In this document: piece by piece, positions 3,966 to 21,720 of the stretch
Numbering within the stretch: position 1 is the first letter of the stretch
How the letters are laid out: every line of letters starts with the position of its first letter
IMG/VR virus record: IMGVR_UViG_3300034355_000169
Coordinates: 1 to 22,331 of that record
Origin: a virus
Strand: one strand, 5' to 3'
Length of the DNA: 22,331 nt
Made by a program: the position numbers and the translations under genes
Notes under the pieces: generated by a model
The model's input: the letters and a program-made list of their open reading frames with translations, nothing else
The model's database searches: none
What the model was told of the DNA's origin: nothing

Positions 3966-4460
3966 ATGCCCGAATCCCCGAGCAACATGACGCCCAAGCT
4001 CGAAGTCGCCTCCGTCGAGGCGGCATTGCAGCTTTCCGTGAGCCTCCACTGGCTTGCCGTCGAGCAGTACACCGTCCAGGCCGAGCATCTCGCCCGGTGG
4101 GGCTACTCCAAGCTCGCCGAAGAGGCCCGCGAAGACGCCGAGGAGGAGCGCGGCCACCTCCGAAAGCTCCTGGCGAGGCTGGAGTTTTACGACATCGAGC
4201 CGACCTGCGACCACGACCACGCCGAATGGCCGCGGCATGACTACGAAGGCATCCTGGCCTCCAACTATGCGTTGGAGGTGAAGTCGATGATGGCCGAGCG
4301 TGGCAACGTGATGGTGGCCCGAAGCGCTGGCGATGAGCTTACGGCGATCGTTTTCGCCGAGATTCTCGCTGGCAGCGAGGCTTCGGTGCGGAACATCGAG
4401 GGGACGATGCGGGTGATCGAGCAGATCGGGATCGACAACTTCCTCGCGGACAAGGTGTGA
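3966..4460 (+). CDS. bacterioferritin-like protein with degenerate ferroxidase site
   Basis: 164 aa, about bacterioferritin length. It aligns from memory with E. coli Bfr without gaps over the first two helices (AVEQYTVQAEHLARWGYSKL against [20 protein letters not shown]) and again in the last two (ALEVKSM; AEILAGSEAS; IEQIGIDNFL). In that alignment E51, H54 and E94 are kept as E61, H64 and E104. E18 becomes H28, E127 becomes S137, H130 becomes S140, and haem ligand M52 becomes R62. Known Bfr oxidises and stores iron; this copy should lack a normal diiron centre. It sits two bases after the portal stop and one base before the protease start, inside the head operon, which suggests a virion or assembly role. 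That role is inference. A more distant ferritin-like protein is the alternative. Confidence 0.75.
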   Translation: MPESPSNMTPKLEVASVEAALQLSVSLHWLAVEQYTVQAEHLARWGYSKLAEEAREDAEEERGHLRKLLARLEFYDIEPTCDHDHAEWPRHDYEGILASNYALEVKSMMAERGNVMVARSAGDELTAIVFAEILAGSEASVRNIEGTMRVIEQIGIDNFLADKV

Positions 4461-8256: not shown

Positions 8257-8262
8257 TTGAAA

Positions 8263-8988
8263 ATGCTGGTTCGTGTCGGAAACACCGAAGCGGAAGTCAA
8301 AGTCGCGGCAGTCATGTCGATGCCGCGGCTGGGATTCACCGACAACTTCTTCTGCGTGGCGTCGGCCCTGGCGCCACACGGCATCTCCCCGGTCAAGGTC
8401 ACAGGGGCCTACTGGGGCCAGAGCCTCCAGATGGCTATCGAGTCGGTCGCCGATGACGCCGACTGGATCCTGACCATCGACTACGACACCGTCTTCTCCT
8501 CGAAGACGGTCGAGGCCCTGCTGACGCTCGCCCTGTGGAGCGGCGCCGACGCCATCGCCCCACTCCAAGTGAAGCGAGAGTCGAATGCCGTCATGTTCGC
8601 CCCGCACGGCGTCGGCTCCGACGTCAAGCTGGAGGTCGAGGACGACTGGTTCAAGAAGCCGGTCCAGTGGGTCGAGACGGCCCACTTCGGCCTCACGTTC
8701 ATTCGGGCCTCGGCCATCAAGGCCGTCCCGAAGCCCTGGTTCAAGGAGTCGGCGAACGAAGACGGGACGTTCACCGGGGGCCACGAAGACGCCGACATCT
8801 ACATGTGGCGGGCGTTCAAGCGGGCCGGGTTCAAGCTGGGCCTCGCGACGCACGTCAGCGTCGGCCACGCCGAACTGATGATCACTTGGCCGTCGAGGCA
8901 GGTGGAGGGCTGCAAAGTCCTCCAGCACACGACGGAGTTCTGGAAGAACGGGCAAAAGGCGCCCGAGAAGGCTTGGGGGCAGGTATGA
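8263..8988 (+). CDS. glycosyltransferase, GT-A fold (GT2-like)
   Basis: 241 aa. Such enzymes move a sugar from a nucleotide-sugar to an acceptor. Visible features are ADDADWILTIDYDTVF with the metal-binding DxD as D73-Y-D75, an acceptor-side segment TAHFGLTFIRASAIKAVPKPWF (residues 139-160), and GGHEDADIYMWRAFKRAGF with E175-D176 followed by HVSVGH (197-202), where a His often binds metal. ATG 8263 is preferred over the in-frame TTG at 8257, which is only two bases from GGAG. The gene lies between capsid and neck genes, so the acceptor may be a virion protein, DNA or a host surface glycan; the sequence does not say which. It ends in an ATGA overlap with the next gene. Confidence 0.82.
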   Translation: MLVRVGNTEAEVKVAAVMSMPRLGFTDNFFCVASALAPHGISPVKVTGAYWGQSLQMAIESVADDADWILTIDYDTVFSSKTVEALLTLALWSGADAIAPLQVKRESNAVMFAPHGVGSDVKLEVEDDWFKKPVQWVETAHFGLTFIRASAIKAVPKPWFKESANEDGTFTGGHEDADIYMWRAFKRAGFKLGLATHVSVGHAELMITWPSRQVEGCKVLQHTTEFWKNGQKAPEKAWGQV

Positions 8989-11679: not shown

Positions 11680-12018
11680 ATGGCCGGTATTTCCGCACAG
11701 GGTCTCACGTTTTCCTTCGGCGGCACCGTTCTCACGGTGACGAGCGTCAATGTCTCCGATCAGCAGGACGTCATCGACGGCAGTCACCTCGGCATCGCCC
11801 CGAACGGGCGGCGTGAGTGGGTGGGTGGCTTCGCGACGAACCGCGAAGTCTCGGTGGAGATCATCTCCCAGACCGTCCTCACGGCAGGCACTTCGGGGGC
11901 GCTCTCCATCACCGGGCCGCTCCAGTTCACCGGCAGCAACGCGACGATCACCTCGGCGAACATCGGCGGGTCGGTCGGCGCTCTGGTGTCTGGAAGCGTC
12001 ACGTTCAAGGTTGCCTGA
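11680..12018 (+). CDS. tail-tube-like protein, first of two paralogues
   Basis: 112 aa, no named family recognised. AAGGAGG (11663-11669) precedes the ATG. It begins MAGISAQGLTFSFGG and is predicted almost all beta: TVLTVTSVNVSDQQDV, REVSVEIISQTV, and GSVTFKVA. Small, strand-rich proteins located between a tail terminator and the tail assembly chaperones are expected to be the tail tube, so this or its partner is probably the major tail protein. It shares its N-terminal half pattern with the following gene, indicating duplication. Which of the two forms the tube, or whether both do, is unclear. Confidence 0.75.
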   Translation: MAGISAQGLTFSFGGTVLTVTSVNVSDQQDVIDGSHLGIAPNGRREWVGGFATNREVSVEIISQTVLTAGTSGALSITGPLQFTGSNATITSANIGGSVGALVSGSVTFKVA

Positions 12019-12033
12019 TTGGGGGCGTGAAGC

Positions 12034-12405
12034 ATGGCAGGCGTCAGCGCACAGGGCGCCACATTCACGTTCAACGGCATTGCGGCGACGATCACCGGGA
12101 TGTCCGTCGAGACTCCGACAGCGGAGGTCGCGGACATGACCGGGATCAACGACGCAGTCGGCGCGACCGTCTTGGTGCCAACCGGCGCGGCCTCCCCCGG
12201 CCGGATCCAGGTCGATTACATCCACGCCGCCGGGGGCATCGACCCCCAGGCGGTTTTGGGCGTCCGGGGGACTCTGTATTTCGGCTCGCCCGGCTACAGC
12301 GTCTCGCGGAACGCAATCCTTGAGTCAGCCAGCACGGAAGTCAGGACTGGCGATGTCGTCCGAGGCTCAATTCGCTTCGTGATGACTGATTACTACGGTT
12401 CTTGA
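12034..12405 (+). CDS. tail-tube-like protein, second paralogue
   Basis: 123 aa. The opening MAGVSAQGATFTFNG and ITGMSVETPTAEVADMTG parallel the preceding gene. The rest (PTGAASPGRIQVDYIHAAGGIDPQ; LGVRGTLYFGSPGYS; DVVRGSIRFVMTDYY) has the strand pattern of phage tail-tube proteins, notably a ...V.DMTG... stretch before a loop and a long central hairpin. It follows 15 bases after its paralogue. It is the better tube candidate because the central hairpin and terminal strand are complete. Confidence 0.75.
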   Translation: MAGVSAQGATFTFNGIAATITGMSVETPTAEVADMTGINDAVGATVLVPTGAASPGRIQVDYIHAAGGIDPQAVLGVRGTLYFGSPGYSVSRNAILESASTEVRTGDVVRGSIRFVMTDYYGS

Positions 12406-12418
12406 GCAAGGTTCAATC

Positions 12419-12811
12419 ATGCCAGCGCTTTCTGCCAGCCAGATTCTCTCTGCGAACGACACGAAGGTCGAGCCTGTCGAGGTTCCTGAGTGGGGCGGGA
12501 CGGTCTACGTCCGGGTTCTTCGAGGGACTGACCGGGACCAGTTCGAGGAGTGGGTCAACAAGGAGAAGGACAAGTCGGTTCGATGCCGGTTCCTCGTCCT
12601 CTCGCTGTGCGACGACAAGGGGTCGTTGCTGTTCACGCCCGATCAGGTCGCTTCTCTCGGCGAGAAGTCCGGTGACGTCTTGGCGAGGGTGTTCGATCGT
12701 GCCTGGGACATCAACTACCTCTCGGTCAAGAAGGTCGAGGAGTTGGGAAAAGATTCGCCGAGCGGCCCGAGCGACGCTTCTACTTCAGGCTCGCCCTCGC
12801 CCTCGGCATGA
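12419..12811 (+). CDS. tail assembly chaperone (gpG-like)
   Basis: 130 aa. Tail chaperones bind the tape measure and recruit tube subunits. It begins MPALSASQILSANDTKVEPVEVPEWGGTVYVRVLRGTDRDQFEEW, the pattern of phage tail assembly chaperones of the G class (a beta strand with W-G, then a helix). It ends in a low-complexity Ser/Pro/Gly tail (DSPSGPSDASTSGSPSPSA), reached only when ribosomes do not shift at 12745-12751. It starts 13 bases after the tube paralogue and ends overlapping the T frame (ATGA at 12808-12811). Confidence 0.85.
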   Translation: MPALSASQILSANDTKVEPVEVPEWGGTVYVRVLRGTDRDQFEEWVNKEKDKSVRCRFLVLSLCDDKGSLLFTPDQVASLGEKSGDVLARVFDRAWDINYLSVKKVEELGKDSPSGPSDASTSGSPSPSA

Positions 12812-13083
12812 CGGTCAAGCGGCTCCTGGCCGAGGTGGACTCCCAGGAGATCGCCGAGTGGTACGCATACGACCAGAGATGGCCGATCGCAGACGGGTGG
12901 CAGCAGACCGCCCGTCTGTGTCGGATCATCATGGCGGCCTCGGGGAACTACGGGAACAAGGTGCCGGATGAGTCGGCATTCATTCCTTCGACAAGAAGGC
13001 CGGAGCAGTCTCAGGAGCAGATTGTCTCGGAACTGATGAAGCTCGTTCGCCCTCCCGGCGACGACAATGACGCGAGAGTGTGA
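12419..13083 (+). CDS. GT-like tail assembly chaperone made by -1 frameshift
   Basis: Reading the G frame to AAA at 12749-12751 and slipping back one base gives a 221-aa product: 111 residues of G and then RFAERPERRFYFRLALALG joined to the T domain. The -1 frame is open from 12751 to the stop at 13081-13083. The junction is hydrophobic and helical and leads into LAEVDSQEIAEWYAYDQRWP, the typical T-domain core. In lambda, a similar slip yields gpGT, whose T part binds the tube while G binds the tape measure. The slip itself is inferred from sequence. Confidence 0.75.
12745..12751 (+). promoter_or_regulatory. programmed -1 frameshift slippery heptamer GGGAAAA
   Basis: In the G frame the codons are TTG GGA AAA, so the heptamer has the required spacing X XXY YYZ (G GGA AAA). 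tRNAs can re-pair on GGG AAA in the -1 frame. Five bases downstream, GCCGAG (12757-12762) can pair with CTCGGC (12802-12807), enclosing a GC-rich region that could act as a stimulatory structure. Location inside the tail chaperone pair makes function likely. Confidence 0.8.
12808..13083 (+). CDS. tail assembly chaperone T-like domain (downstream frame)
   Basis: 91 aa from the ATG. VKRLLAEVDSQEIAEWYAYDQRWPI is the T-class core: F-x-L-A-x-x-x-G-x-x-V-x-x-L (partly 5' of this ATG, in the -1 frame) followed by L-A-x-x-x-x-x-E-I-x-x-W-x-A-Y. The middle (ARLCRIIMAASG) is helical and the C-terminus is charged and polar. The conserved segment begins upstream of the ATG, so the domain is probably made mainly as the frameshift fusion. 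The ATGA overlap with the G stop also allows reinitiation as a separate protein. The stop overlaps the tape measure start (TGATG). Confidence 0.78.
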   Translation: MTVKRLLAEVDSQEIAEWYAYDQRWPIADGWQQTARLCRIIMAASGNYGNKVPDESAFIPSTRRPEQSQEQIVSELMKLVRPPGDDNDARV

Positions 13084-16000
13084 TGAGCGCAGGATACCTC
13101 GGAAAAATCTCTGCGATCGTCACCGTGAACACCACGGACATTGCGTCCAAGGTGCAGAGCGGTTTCGCAGCCCCGTTCGACAAGGCCCTGCGGTCCATCG
13201 AGACGACTCTTCGGAACACGAATCGTTCCGTCGAGAAGTCGTTTGGCGACATCTACACGGCGTCGCAAAAGCAGGCTCGCGCCATTGCCGCAGCGCAGAT
13301 GGGGGCCGTCAAGGGCTTCGACGCAGAGGACTTCGGAAAGAGGCTGCGGATTCGCGATGACATCTCCGAGCCGGTGAAGAAACTGGCTCTTGAGATCGAG
13401 AAGACCGGCGGCATTCTGCGGGGTAACTTCGAGCCTCAGATAGTCTCTCTTCAAGCGGCATCCCAGGCCCTCTTCGACAAGATGGCGACCGATGCCGCCT
13501 CAGTGTCAAGCGGGGAGATATCGGAACTGATCCGAAGGGTTGAGTCGCTTGGCGTTGCCTTCAAAGCCGCAGGGACCGCGGCCGACGGGTGGGAGCGGCT
13601 GAGTGCCATCGGCCGCGGCGACAAAGGTACGAGGGGTACGGATCTTCTCTTCGCCGGTCTCGGCGCCGCGTCGAGGCGTGCCGTTGGTGTTGTGGAGTCA
13701 GGTGCGGCCCGAGACGCTGCCGCAATGCAGGCCGACAAAGAAGCCCGCGATGCCCGGTTCGCAACACTTGGCGCGGCTGGTCGGGAGGCGATCGGGACGT
13801 CCCAGATGTTCGCCACGTTGGGCCAGAGGGTCCGCGATCAGTCGGTTGACCAGAACGCCGCGAACGAGGCGCTGGAGCAGCAGAGGCGAATCTGGGCGGT
13901 TCGCGACGCCGATCAAGCCGCGTTCGAGCAGCGGCAGCGAGCCGCAGCCCAGCAAATCCACGCCGAAGAGCAGGCCGCGATCGCCGCCGAGCGGGCCGCC
14001 CGCGAAGCCGGAGAGCGTCAGGCGCAGGAAGCCGCCCAAGCGGAGCTTCGATCGCGGGAGCTGATTCGACAGAGGATTCAAGAGGATTTCCAAGAGCGCC
14101 AGCGACTTACCGCGCAGCTCATTTACGACGAGGAGCAGGCCGCAATTGCGGCAGAGCGTGCGGACAGGGAGCGAGACGAAAGACGTCGCGAGATGCTCGA
14201 CGAGAACGCCGCGAGAATGCGTGACGCCTCTCAGTACCAGATGCAAGCAGACGCCGCAGCCGAGCGGTCGGCAGCGGCAAGGTTGTCCGGCGCCGTCGGC
14301 GTCGCCAGGACGAGTGCCACGGACGAGTTCAGAGAGTCATTCGGAGGCCGCGGTGCTGCCGGAATAAACCTCGGACTCGACCGCAGGGCGCTGACTGGGT
14401 ACACGGCAGAGCTTCAGGTCTTGCAGAGGGCGATAGGGAACGCCTCGGCTGAAGCCAGAGGCCCGGCCGTCGATGCTTTCGTTCGCCTCAAGAACGCCAT
14501 CGGCGATGCTTTTGAGTCTGGCGAAATTGGCACTGTGGCGACGAGAAGGAATATCGAGCGACTGCGAAACGAAGCGGTAAACGAAGCCTCCTCCGCGACC
14601 GGCCGGAGCCGTCGGGGATTGGGGCAAGAAGTTGGCAGGGCTGGTGACATCGCCAGAGGTGGCGTCGATAAGCTCAGTCTTGCACTCCAGCAGGCGGGAT
14701 TCGCCATCGACGACTTCTTCTCGGCCACGGGCGGGCTAGATCAGAAGATCCGTGCCGTCAGCAACAACATCTCCCAGATGGCTTTCATCCTCGGCGGCAC
14801 AGCGGGGTTGTTTACGGGCCTCGCGTTCACCATCGGGTCGCAGGCGGTCGTGGCGCTGCTTAAGTGGGCCGACGCCGGACGCACGTCGGCAGACCGCACG
14901 GAAGCACTCAACAAAGCCCTTGAACGGCAGAAGTCTCTCGCCGAGGAACTTACCACCGCCTACCGCGACCTCGCGAAAAGCCTGACCGCAGCCATGTCGC
15001 CACAAGGCGTCAAGGCGGCCGACCGCGCAAAGCAGTTGTCTGACCTTACAAGAACGCGCCAGCAGTCGATGGAAGAGGACATCTACGCCAACGACACGGG
15101 CGTTGCGAGTGCGAGAGCAAGCGTAGCCATGGAGGAGAAGAGGGCGTTGCTCTCCTTGACTCCAGTCCAGCAGCAAGCCGCGCAGCTTCGCATCAAGATC
15201 GCAAAGCAGCAGGTCGAGGTGGCGAAGCGTGAGTCGCTCGCGAGGAATGCTGCATTCAACGACTTTGTCGATCGGGGCGTTGGGGGAGGCCCCGGAGCCG
15301 CTGTCCAAGCCTCGATTCAGCAGGCCATTCAGACCTTCGGCCGGATCCGAATGGACGGCATGGACCCCGGCGACGCTCGACGGTTTGAGGAGTTCGTCAA
15401 CGCGCAGATGAACGCCGTGCCGATCGCGGCCGACAAGGAGGGTGCCGCGGCGCAGCTTCGCGCCTTTCTTGATCAGGAGTTCAGGACAAACGAGATCGCA
15501 AGGGCGCCGGGAGCGGTTGCGGCCCCCGTTGTCGGCGCGCTTCTTGAGCAACTCGCCCGTCTTGAGTTCGGCCTGAAAGAGGCGAACTCCGCGATCATCG
15601 ACGAGGTCAACAAGTCTCTTCTCGACACATCGGATGTGATCGAGAAAGCGAAGAATACGCTTGACTCCGCAGCCATGGAGACTCAGGACGTCACCGCTCT
15701 TCGGACGGAAATCGACCGAGTCGCCACCACGCTTGCTGCCCTGTCCGCTGCGGCCTCGGAAACAACCGACAAGGCGGTCCTTGACGCGATCGCCGAGGAC
15801 GCCGCGGCGGCAAAGGCTTTCGGCGACAAGTTGAACGAAGCGGCCCGCGGCGTGAAGGAGTTCGCAGACCAGATCCAGGCGGCGATTGCCGAGGAGGCCG
15901 CCGCTGCGGCGAGGGGCGTCGATCTCGGCAGGGTTCGGGATCAGGCTTCGCAGGCCGAAGACATCCGCGCTGCTGCGGCGAACATCGGAAACGACGCAGA

Positions 16001-16295
16001 CAGGCGGTCGTTCATCGAAAGGGCGTTCGGAAATGTCGTCGCGGACACGCAAACAGCCCTCAAGGGCTTCGGGATGGAGCGTGAGAACGCCCTGCTTGGC
16101 GGCCCCAGCCGGGCGGCCCTGAATGCCTCGGACGTGTCCACGTTCGAGGGGCAGCGGGAGCTAAACCGACTGCTTCGCGGCGACGACGCAAGTCGCGACG
16201 TCAACTTCGCGGAAATGAAACACCAAAGCGAGCTTCTTCAAACAATCGCAGACCGAATCCTTGCCGCGACAGGGGTCGCGGTCGAGTTCAGGTAG
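13083..16295 (+). CDS. tail tape measure protein
   Basis: 1070 aa, the longest gene in the window, directly after the chaperones as expected. The tape measure fills the tail lumen, sets tail length and helps DNA enter the cell. Residues about 200-400 are an Ala/Glu/Arg-rich coiled coil containing a 25-aa unit repeated 55 residues apart (EEQAAIAAERA at 295 and 350). One hydrophobic segment (about 565-595, MAFILGGTAGLFTGLAF followed by GSQAVVALL) could cross the host membrane. The C-terminal third is again Ala/Asp/Glu-rich. No peptidase, lysozyme or transglycosylase motif is seen. ATG 13083 is preferred; a GTG immediately before it is in frame. Confidence 0.9.
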   Translation: MSAGYLGKISAIVTVNTTDIASKVQSGFAAPFDKALRSIETTLRNTNRSVEKSFGDIYTASQKQARAIAAAQMGAVKGFDAEDFGKRLRIRDDISEPVKKLALEIEKTGGILRGNFEPQIVSLQAASQALFDKMATDAASVSSGEISELIRRVESLGVAFKAAGTAADGWERLSAIGRGDKGTRGTDLLFAGLGAASRRAVGVVESGAARDAAAMQADKEARDARFATLGAAGREAIGTSQMFATLGQRVRDQSVDQNAANEALEQQRRIWAVRDADQAAFEQRQRAAAQQIHAEEQAAIAAERAAREAGERQAQEAAQAELRSRELIRQRIQEDFQERQRLTAQLIYDEEQAAIAAERADRERDERRREMLDENAARMRDASQYQMQADAAAERSAAARLSGAVGVARTSATDEFRESFGGRGAAGINLGLDRRALTGYTAELQVLQRAIGNASAEARGPAVDAFVRLKNAIGDAFESGEIGTVATRRNIERLRNEAVNEASSATGRSRRGLGQEVGRAGDIARGGVDKLSLALQQAGFAIDDFFSATGGLDQKIRAVSNNISQMAFILGGTAGLFTGLAFTIGSQAVVALLKWADAGRTSADRTEALNKALERQKSLAEELTTAYRDLAKSLTAAMSPQGVKAADRAKQLSDLTRTRQQSMEEDIYANDTGVASARASVAMEEKRALLSLTPVQQQAAQLRIKIAKQQVEVAKRESLARNAAFNDFVDRGVGGGPGAAVQASIQQAIQTFGRIRMDGMDPGDARRFEEFVNAQMNAVPIAADKEGAAAQLRAFLDQEFRTNEIARAPGAVAAPVVGALLEQLARLEFGLKEANSAIIDEVNKSLLDTSDVIEKAKNTLDSAAMETQDVTALRTEIDRVATTLAALSAAASETTDKAVLDAIAEDAAAAKAFGDKLNEAARGVKEFADQIQAAIAEEAAAAARGVDLGRVRDQASQAEDIRAAAANIGNDADRRSFIERAFGNVVADTQTALKGFGMERENALLGGPSRAALNASDVSTFEGQRELNRLLRGDDASRDVNFAEMKHQSELLQTIADRILAATGVAVEFR

Positions 16296-20105: not shown

Positions 20106-21241
20106 TCGCCGCCGACCCGACGATCCTCGGGCCACCCCAGGTCACGACGACGACCGACGGCGACACGAAGACGATCCAGTCGGCGTCGCATGGGATCAGG
20201 ACCGTGGACGATCTCCTCCGGCACATCGAAGCCGATCTCACGAAGTTCGAGGTCGTCGCGAGCGAGGCGACTGTCTGGGAATCCCCCAGCGACGGCGCCA
20301 AGGTGCCTCTCTACCGCGTCTGGGTAAAGCTCCGGCCCCGCGGTGGCCCCGGCGTCCTCGACGCCGTGAAGGCCATGCTCGACGGCGCCGCAGCCTCGAT
20401 CACCCGCAAGGGCCGCAAGCCGCACCGCCCCCGCACCGGCGGCGCGTGGCAGGTGCTGGTCGTGGCCGACGTCCACCTCGCCAAGCTCGCCTGGACGCCC
20501 TCGACCGGCGAGGCCGACTACGACCTCGACATCGCCACCCGGCTCCTCCGCGACACGTCCCACGAACTGGTCGCCAGCGGCGACGCGATCTTCAAGCCGT
20601 CCCGAAGGACCGTGGCCTTCCTCGGAGACCTGTTCCACTTCGACACACCACACGGCACGACGAGCAGCGGAAACACCTACCTCGACCGCGACTCCCGCAT
20701 CCAGAAGATGCTCGATGTCGGCACCGACGCCCTCCTCGACGTCGTGGCCCGGTCGGCCGAGACCTGCCAGACCGACGTCGTCCTCGTCGCCGGGAACCAC
20801 GACGAAGCCCTGTCGTGGGCGTTCCACAAGATGCTTTCGATCCAGTTCGCGAAGGACGAGCGGGTCACGATCGCCAAGAGCTACACCGCCCGTACCTACG
20901 CCCATCACGGCGGGACACTCCTCGGGTTCGCCCACGGCAACCGGGCCAAGAAGAAGCTCCCGCAACTGATGGCCTACGAACGCCCCGCCCTGTGGGCGCA
21001 GTGTCCCTACCGGGAATACCACACCGGCCACTTCCACTCCCAGGCGGCCGAGTGGCAGCGGCCCATCGAGACGATCGATTCGGTGGTCGTGCGAACCGCC
21101 CCTGCCCTCTGCCCCGCGGATGAATGGCATTCCGCGAACGGATTTCTGGGGAGCCGCCGGGCGATGGAGACGTTTTTTTACAGCCACCGCGGCGGCCTCG
21201 ACGGGATGCTCGTCGCCGGGCCGGAGGAGGAGGGGAAATGA
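19979..21241 (+). CDS. calcineurin-like metallophosphoesterase
   Basis: About 420 aa from ATG 19979 (GGAGG 19964-19968 upstream). The start is uncertain: the first 50 residues lie in a different frame of the preceding gene and look low-complexity, so a later non-ATG start is possible. Motifs in order are DVH (164-166), GDLFHFD (GD at 216-217), GNHDE (272-276), HG (319-320) and GHFH (350-353). This is the full dimetal phosphoesterase set. Phage enzymes of this type can act as nucleases or nucleotidases; substrate is unknown. A conserved-looking N-terminal domain (about 60-140) precedes the catalytic part. It overlaps dCMP deaminase by ATGA. Confidence 0.85.
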   Translation: MARRDVQGHREPNGDKSGRRREADGNRSPAVENGRGRLAERLIAADPTILGPPQVTTTTDGDTKTIQSASHGIRTVDDLLRHIEADLTKFEVVASEATVWESPSDGAKVPLYRVWVKLRPRGGPGVLDAVKAMLDGAAASITRKGRKPHRPRTGGAWQVLVVADVHLAKLAWTPSTGEADYDLDIATRLLRDTSHELVASGDAIFKPSRRTVAFLGDLFHFDTPHGTTSSGNTYLDRDSRIQKMLDVGTDALLDVVARSAETCQTDVVLVAGNHDEALSWAFHKMLSIQFAKDERVTIAKSYTARTYAHHGGTLLGFAHGNRAKKKLPQLMAYERPALWAQCPYREYHTGHFHSQAAEWQRPIETIDSVVVRTAPALCPADEWHSANGFLGSRRAMETFFYSHRGGLDGMLVAGPEEEGK

Positions 21242-21720
21242 CGGAGATCGAGTATCTGAGGAAGGCGGCGAAGTTCGGCATGGTGATGTCCGACGATCTG
21301 CGGACGCGGGTCGGGGCGCTGATCCTGATCTCCGACGCCACTTACCTGCTGGGCGCGAACCGCCTTTCTCCGGGTGTCAGGCACACCTCGACCCGCGTGT
21401 CGCCGGAGCGCAAGGACCGCTACATCGAACACGCGGAGCGAGACGTCATCAACATCGCCGCCCGCCACGGGATATCGACCGACGGATCGACGATGTACGC
21501 CCCGTGGTTCGCCTGCTGCGGATGCGCAAGAGCCATCATCAACGCCGGGATCCGCGAGGTTGTGGGGCTTGCTTTGCTCCAGTCGATGACCGCCCACAAA
21601 TGGTCCGAGGAGATCGCCGCGGCACACCAGATGCTCGCCGAGGCTGGAGTCGGAATGCGGTGGCTCACCGCGGAAATCGGCACGACGATCCTGTTCGACG
21701 GCAAGGAGGTGGAGATATGA
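21238..21720 (+). CDS. deoxycytidylate deaminase-like (dCMP deaminase)
   Basis: 160 aa. The zinc site shows HAERDVINIAA (His ligand and catalytic Glu) and WFACCGCARAIINAGI, the phage-type variant of P-C-x-x-C with Cys ligands four residues apart. Deaminating dCMP to dUMP supplies thymidylate precursors for phage DNA synthesis. The ATG at 21238 overlaps the upstream stop (ATGA) and is preceded by GAGGAGG. Its own stop overlaps the following kinase (ATGA), giving a nucleotide-supply pair. Cytidine or other deaminase activity is a less likely alternative. Confidence 0.85.
   Translation: MTEIEYLRKAAKFGMVMSDDLRTRVGALILISDATYLLGANRLSPGVRHTSTRVSPERKDRYIEHAERDVINIAARHGISTDGSTMYAPWFACCGCARAIINAGIREVVGLALLQSMTAHKWSEEIAAAHQMLAEAGVGMRWLTAEIGTTILFDGKEVEI

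Follow-up and report, generated by a model that had tools for sequence, protein, structure and literature searches.

In phage lambda, which offers the closest described system, a -1 ribosomal frameshift occurs near the 3' end of gene G; its slip site is G_GGA_AAG according to the passage of PMC5009743 that cites Levin 1993 and Xu 2004. The short product G and the fusion product GT are made there at a ratio of about 30:1, and the T part binds the major tail protein (PMC5009743). In the Streptomyces phages Dubu and phiSASD1, the tail assembly chaperone is annotated as a joined coding sequence with GGGAAAC in phase. A second slip motif, GGGGGAA, is represented by about a thousand actinophage sites ('fivetwo', PRFect; PMC10885494) and has been described for the tail chaperone of corynephage phi16 (PMC5506516).

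The window analyzed here is the whole 22,331-nt stretch of viral DNA (IMG/VR record IMGVR_UViG_3300034355_000169), from a phage that has no cultured close relatives. All features given below with coordinates lie on its plus strand. At positions 12419-13083 it contains a gene pair that is very probably expressed by a functional programmed -1 frameshift of the lambda G/GT type, and we assign this reading a probability of about 0.96. Since lambda GGGAAAG, the joined genes of the Streptomyces phages, and the documented GGGGGAA sites are precedents, the kind of frameshift is already known, and the locus would represent a new, well-supported example of it. The locus shares with lambda the gene order, the -1 shift near the 3' end of G, the GGGAAAN type of heptamer, and a T domain of the Pfam Phage_tail_T family, whereas the heptamer of the window ends in A (codon AAA) and that of lambda in G, and the protein sequences are far apart. 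The same script recovered GGGAAAG in phase in lambda. In Dubu and phiSASD1, G and T show about 40% identity to those of the window, and these phages have a joined gene, GGGAAAC in phase, and T in the -1 frame as well; in contrast to the window, their 0-frame stop directly follows the slip codon (GGAAACTGA).

The 0-frame gene G (12419-12811) encodes a 130-aa protein that matches the tail assembly chaperone family PHROG 344 (E 3e-28), while its match to Pfam TAC_13 falls below the cut-off. Near its 3' end, the slippery heptamer GGGAAAA occupies positions 12745-12751, and the 0-frame codons are GGA (12746-12748) and AAA (12749-12751), that is, the canonical G_GGA_AAA phase of an X XXY YYZ site. 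The nearest -1 frame stop on the 5' side of the heptamer is TGA at 12673; from 12676 onward no stop interrupts this frame until that of T, which ends at 13083. A -1 shift at the heptamer would thus append the T domain (12748-13083, 111 residues and the stop) and yield a GT fusion of 221 aa (12419-13083). The phase, the open frame, and the two protein lengths had been proposed in an earlier note made from the sequence of the window, and all of its numbers, including the coordinates and the spacing of the downstream stem discussed below, were reproduced. Among the 6055 codons of the 21 open reading frames examined, no X XXY YYZ heptamer (Y being A or T) other than GGGAAAA is in phase. When the codons of G were shuffled, 1.3% of the resulting sequences had GGGAAAN in the overlap.

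Both parts of the fusion are homologous to known tail assembly chaperones. T matches Pfam Phage_tail_T (PF06223) above the cut-off, and PHROG 14766 aligns over residues 36-189 of the GT fusion, spanning the junction. PHROG 337 matches T with E 1.6e-5 if the protein is read from its ATG and with E 1.2e-11 if it is read from the slip site, which indicates that the T domain already starts before this codon. About 20 conserved T-domain residues precede this codon; residues R6, P7, E8, F11, L15, and A16 of the segment are invariant among the relatives (RPE..F...LA), and the stretch from the slip site to the ATG is among the most conserved. In the AlphaFold model of the T domain, which has moderate confidence (mean pLDDT 66) and was used only for this segment, the residues upstream of the ATG form a helix in the more confident part of the model. 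The earlier suggestion that T-domain conservation starts before the ATG therefore stands.

Two scans of IMG/VR and one scan of genome contigs yielded relatives that, together with the window, made up 63 distinct environmental sequences once duplicates had been removed. The column of the slip site contains GGGAAAA in 32 of them, GGGAAAC in seven, and GGGGGAA in 24, so that a heptamer is present in all 63; as these sequences are related to each other, the counts do not represent independent events, although the pattern is one-sided. GGGGGAA, used by 24 of the 63 sequences at the homologous place, is the actinophage 'fivetwo' heptamer, whereas the window itself has GGGAAAA. The earlier note had made its reading depend on whether related phages keep the heptamer in phase and a -1 frame that is open ahead of the T ATG; a slippery heptamer in this phase and the open frame are retained in all 63. 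Together with the matches to PHROG 344, Phage_tail_T, and PHROG 14766, this conservation supports the proposed correspondence to the lambda mechanism. Chance origin of the heptamer is untenable given its conservation, and this candidate explanation was rejected.

The conservation extends to synonymous positions. The glycine codon of the slip site is GGA or GGG in 63 of 63 sequences, compared with 44 of 352 (12.5%) elsewhere in G, and the A-site lysine is encoded by AAA in 32 of 32, compared with 53 of 526 (10%). The codon preceding the slip-site glycine always ends in G. Among 53 distinct sequences, the GGG of the slip site is invariant, and variation peaks at third codon positions, those of the G frame on the 5' side of the site and those of the T frame on its 3' side. 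We also considered the possibility that G and T are one continuous gene that a sequencing or assembly error had broken into two frames. Single-base errors do split open reading frames in contigs, and nothing more specific speaks for this explanation here; it is refuted by the relatives, as all 67 distinct sequences that contain both parts, among them those of cultured phages, have T in the -1 frame and the 0-frame stop is conserved as well, which leaves it a practically negligible probability.

The end of G is informative in its own right. The 0-frame stop is located at +43 from the first base after GGG in 51 of 68 sequences, and it exists because the leucine codon of the T frame at this place is CTA or TTA (49 of 55 sequences), codons that are nearly absent among the other leucine codons of G. 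To judge from this codon usage, the rare leucine codon serves to end G, and since the stop is kept in this way, both G and GT appear to be under selection. In the window, the leucine codon is CTC and the usual stop is lost, so that G continues to the TGA at 12809-12811; this is the only one of 68 distinct sequences with the G stop at +61. The ATGA at 12808-12811, in which the stop of G overlaps a possible start of T, is thus a peculiarity of the window.

This overlap raises the question of whether G and T are simply two separate proteins made by ATGA translational coupling, with an incidental heptamer. An ATG is found at the position of the T start in 42 of 68 distinct sequences, which speaks for coupling. 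On the other hand, neither the window nor any of the 32 distinct relatives with ATG that were inspected has a Shine-Dalgarno-like motif in front of it; 21 of 63 sequences have neither ATG nor GTG near the T start, AAG being the commonest replacement; and in the majority of relatives the stop of G precedes the ATG by about 15 nt and does not overlap it. Coupling also leaves unexplained why both conserved T residues and a helix predicted with good confidence precede the ATG and why the heptamer is kept at synonymous sites. Plain stop/start coupling was rejected on the basis of the relatives without a start, the missing Shine-Dalgarno motifs, and the conservation upstream of the ATG, and as the sole mode of T expression it is very improbable. 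The earlier note had allowed that both modes may operate, frameshifting producing GT and coupled initiation adding some free T in this phage. The ATGA overlap it pointed to is present, and coupling can work without a Shine-Dalgarno sequence; the overlap, however, is confined to one of 68 distinct sequences, and a free T would be devoid of the conserved RPERRFYFRLALAL helix. We consider such a combination unlikely, though less so than coupling alone. In view of the absent Shine-Dalgarno motif, the lack of a start in a third of the relatives, and the loss of the conserved helix, initiation at the ATGA is unlikely to be the main source of T and could at best be a weak additional mode.

The frameshift reading also included a possible stimulatory stem. 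Its arms GCCGAG (12757-12762) and CTCGGC (12802-12807) form a perfect 6-bp match beginning 5 nt after the heptamer, at the positions noted before. Of 46 distinct sequences, about 13 form all six pairs, and compensatory changes occur in three relatives (L024, L052, and L074), whereas the stem is absent from most sequences of the GGGGGAA group. In the window itself the fold is not better than in shuffled sequences (z about -0.9), so that the stem alone is unremarkable there, and consensus folding of all 46 distinct sequences revealed no common structure. Randomization preserving the codons gave a mean z of -0.9 over 32 sequences, with strong cases in L024, L029, and L032; the signal comes largely from the GGGAAAN group, and most of the GGGGGAA group has none. 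The match and the spacer of the proposed stem are thus correct, but its support is moderate and comes from one subgroup only, and we regard the stem as plausible but unproven. An upstream GAG at -20 is present in 34 of 42 relatives, which is not clearly above the bias in glutamate codons (the window has AAGG there), and support for an internal Shine-Dalgarno element upstream of the slip site does not go further than this bias. A scan of the window against Rfam yielded no match, a promoter scan around the slip site found no promoter, and a single terminator-like match near the site, on the minus strand, is at chance level.

By analogy with lambda, we suggest that most ribosomes would read G and stop after 130 aa, while a minority would slip back one base on G_GGA_AAA, the P- and A-site tRNAs re-pairing with GGG and AAA, and enter T to yield the 221-aa GT. 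As in lambda, G would coat the tape measure protein, and the T part of GT would recruit the major tail protein and thereby let the tail tube polymerize to the right length; both G and GT would leave before the tail is completed.

The main value of this case lies in comparative evidence that is both extensive and clear. A large phage lineage, most of it uncultured, is hereby firmly assigned to the G/GT frameshift system. The 20 conserved T residues before the ATG would escape gene callers, which would also find no T start in a third of the relatives. With over 60 sequences, two heptamers that can replace each other, and a 0-frame stop under selection, the family provides a useful natural data set on the tuning of slip-site efficiency. 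One tentative idea, which we hold to be possible rather than probable, is that a single lineage switches, at one and the same codon pair, between GGGAAAN and GGGGGAA, the stem mainly accompanying GGGAAAN; different means would then serve to retune efficiency at a constant GT:G ratio, and the rare leucine codon would be kept solely to end the short product.

Homologues of G and T, with T in the -1 frame, were also found in the Rhodococcus phages Madraxi and REQ1 (L083 and L086; about 760-830). Conserved T residues again precede any start, and the canonical heptamer was not found in the G/T overlap of either phage; these phages may shift by another motif. One relative with GGGAAAC at the site (L088) lies on a contig of a Planctomycetaceae metagenome-assembled genome, which hints at the host group without proving it.

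The gene pair is located in a tailed-phage morphogenesis module, as indicated by the terminase, portal, S78 protease, major head protein, and connector protein genes upstream of G. The order and sizes of the genes flanking G and T fit the slots of the major tail protein and the tape measure protein; neither has a profile match, and these two are thus named by order only. The former slot is occupied by two similar short tandem reading frames (11680-12405), both starting with MAG(I/V)SAQG and without a match in Pfam or PHROG, and the latter by a long reading frame at 13083-16295 (alternative start GTG at 13080), assigned by position and length and likewise without a significant match to Pfam or PHROG.

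Several other genes of the window deserve mention. Among the structural genes, a 243-aa reading frame (8257-8988) without PHROG or Pfam matches looks glycosyltransferase-like by eye (DADWILTIDYDTVF). A 157-aa ferritin-like protein (3987-4460; PF00210, E 3.8e-10) is encoded between the portal and S78 prohead protease genes, an unexpected finding in a phage head module. Finally, a cytidine/deoxycytidylate deaminase gene (PF00383) is located at 21238-21720, and the product of the reading frame that follows it resembles, by eye, a deoxynucleotide monophosphate kinase.
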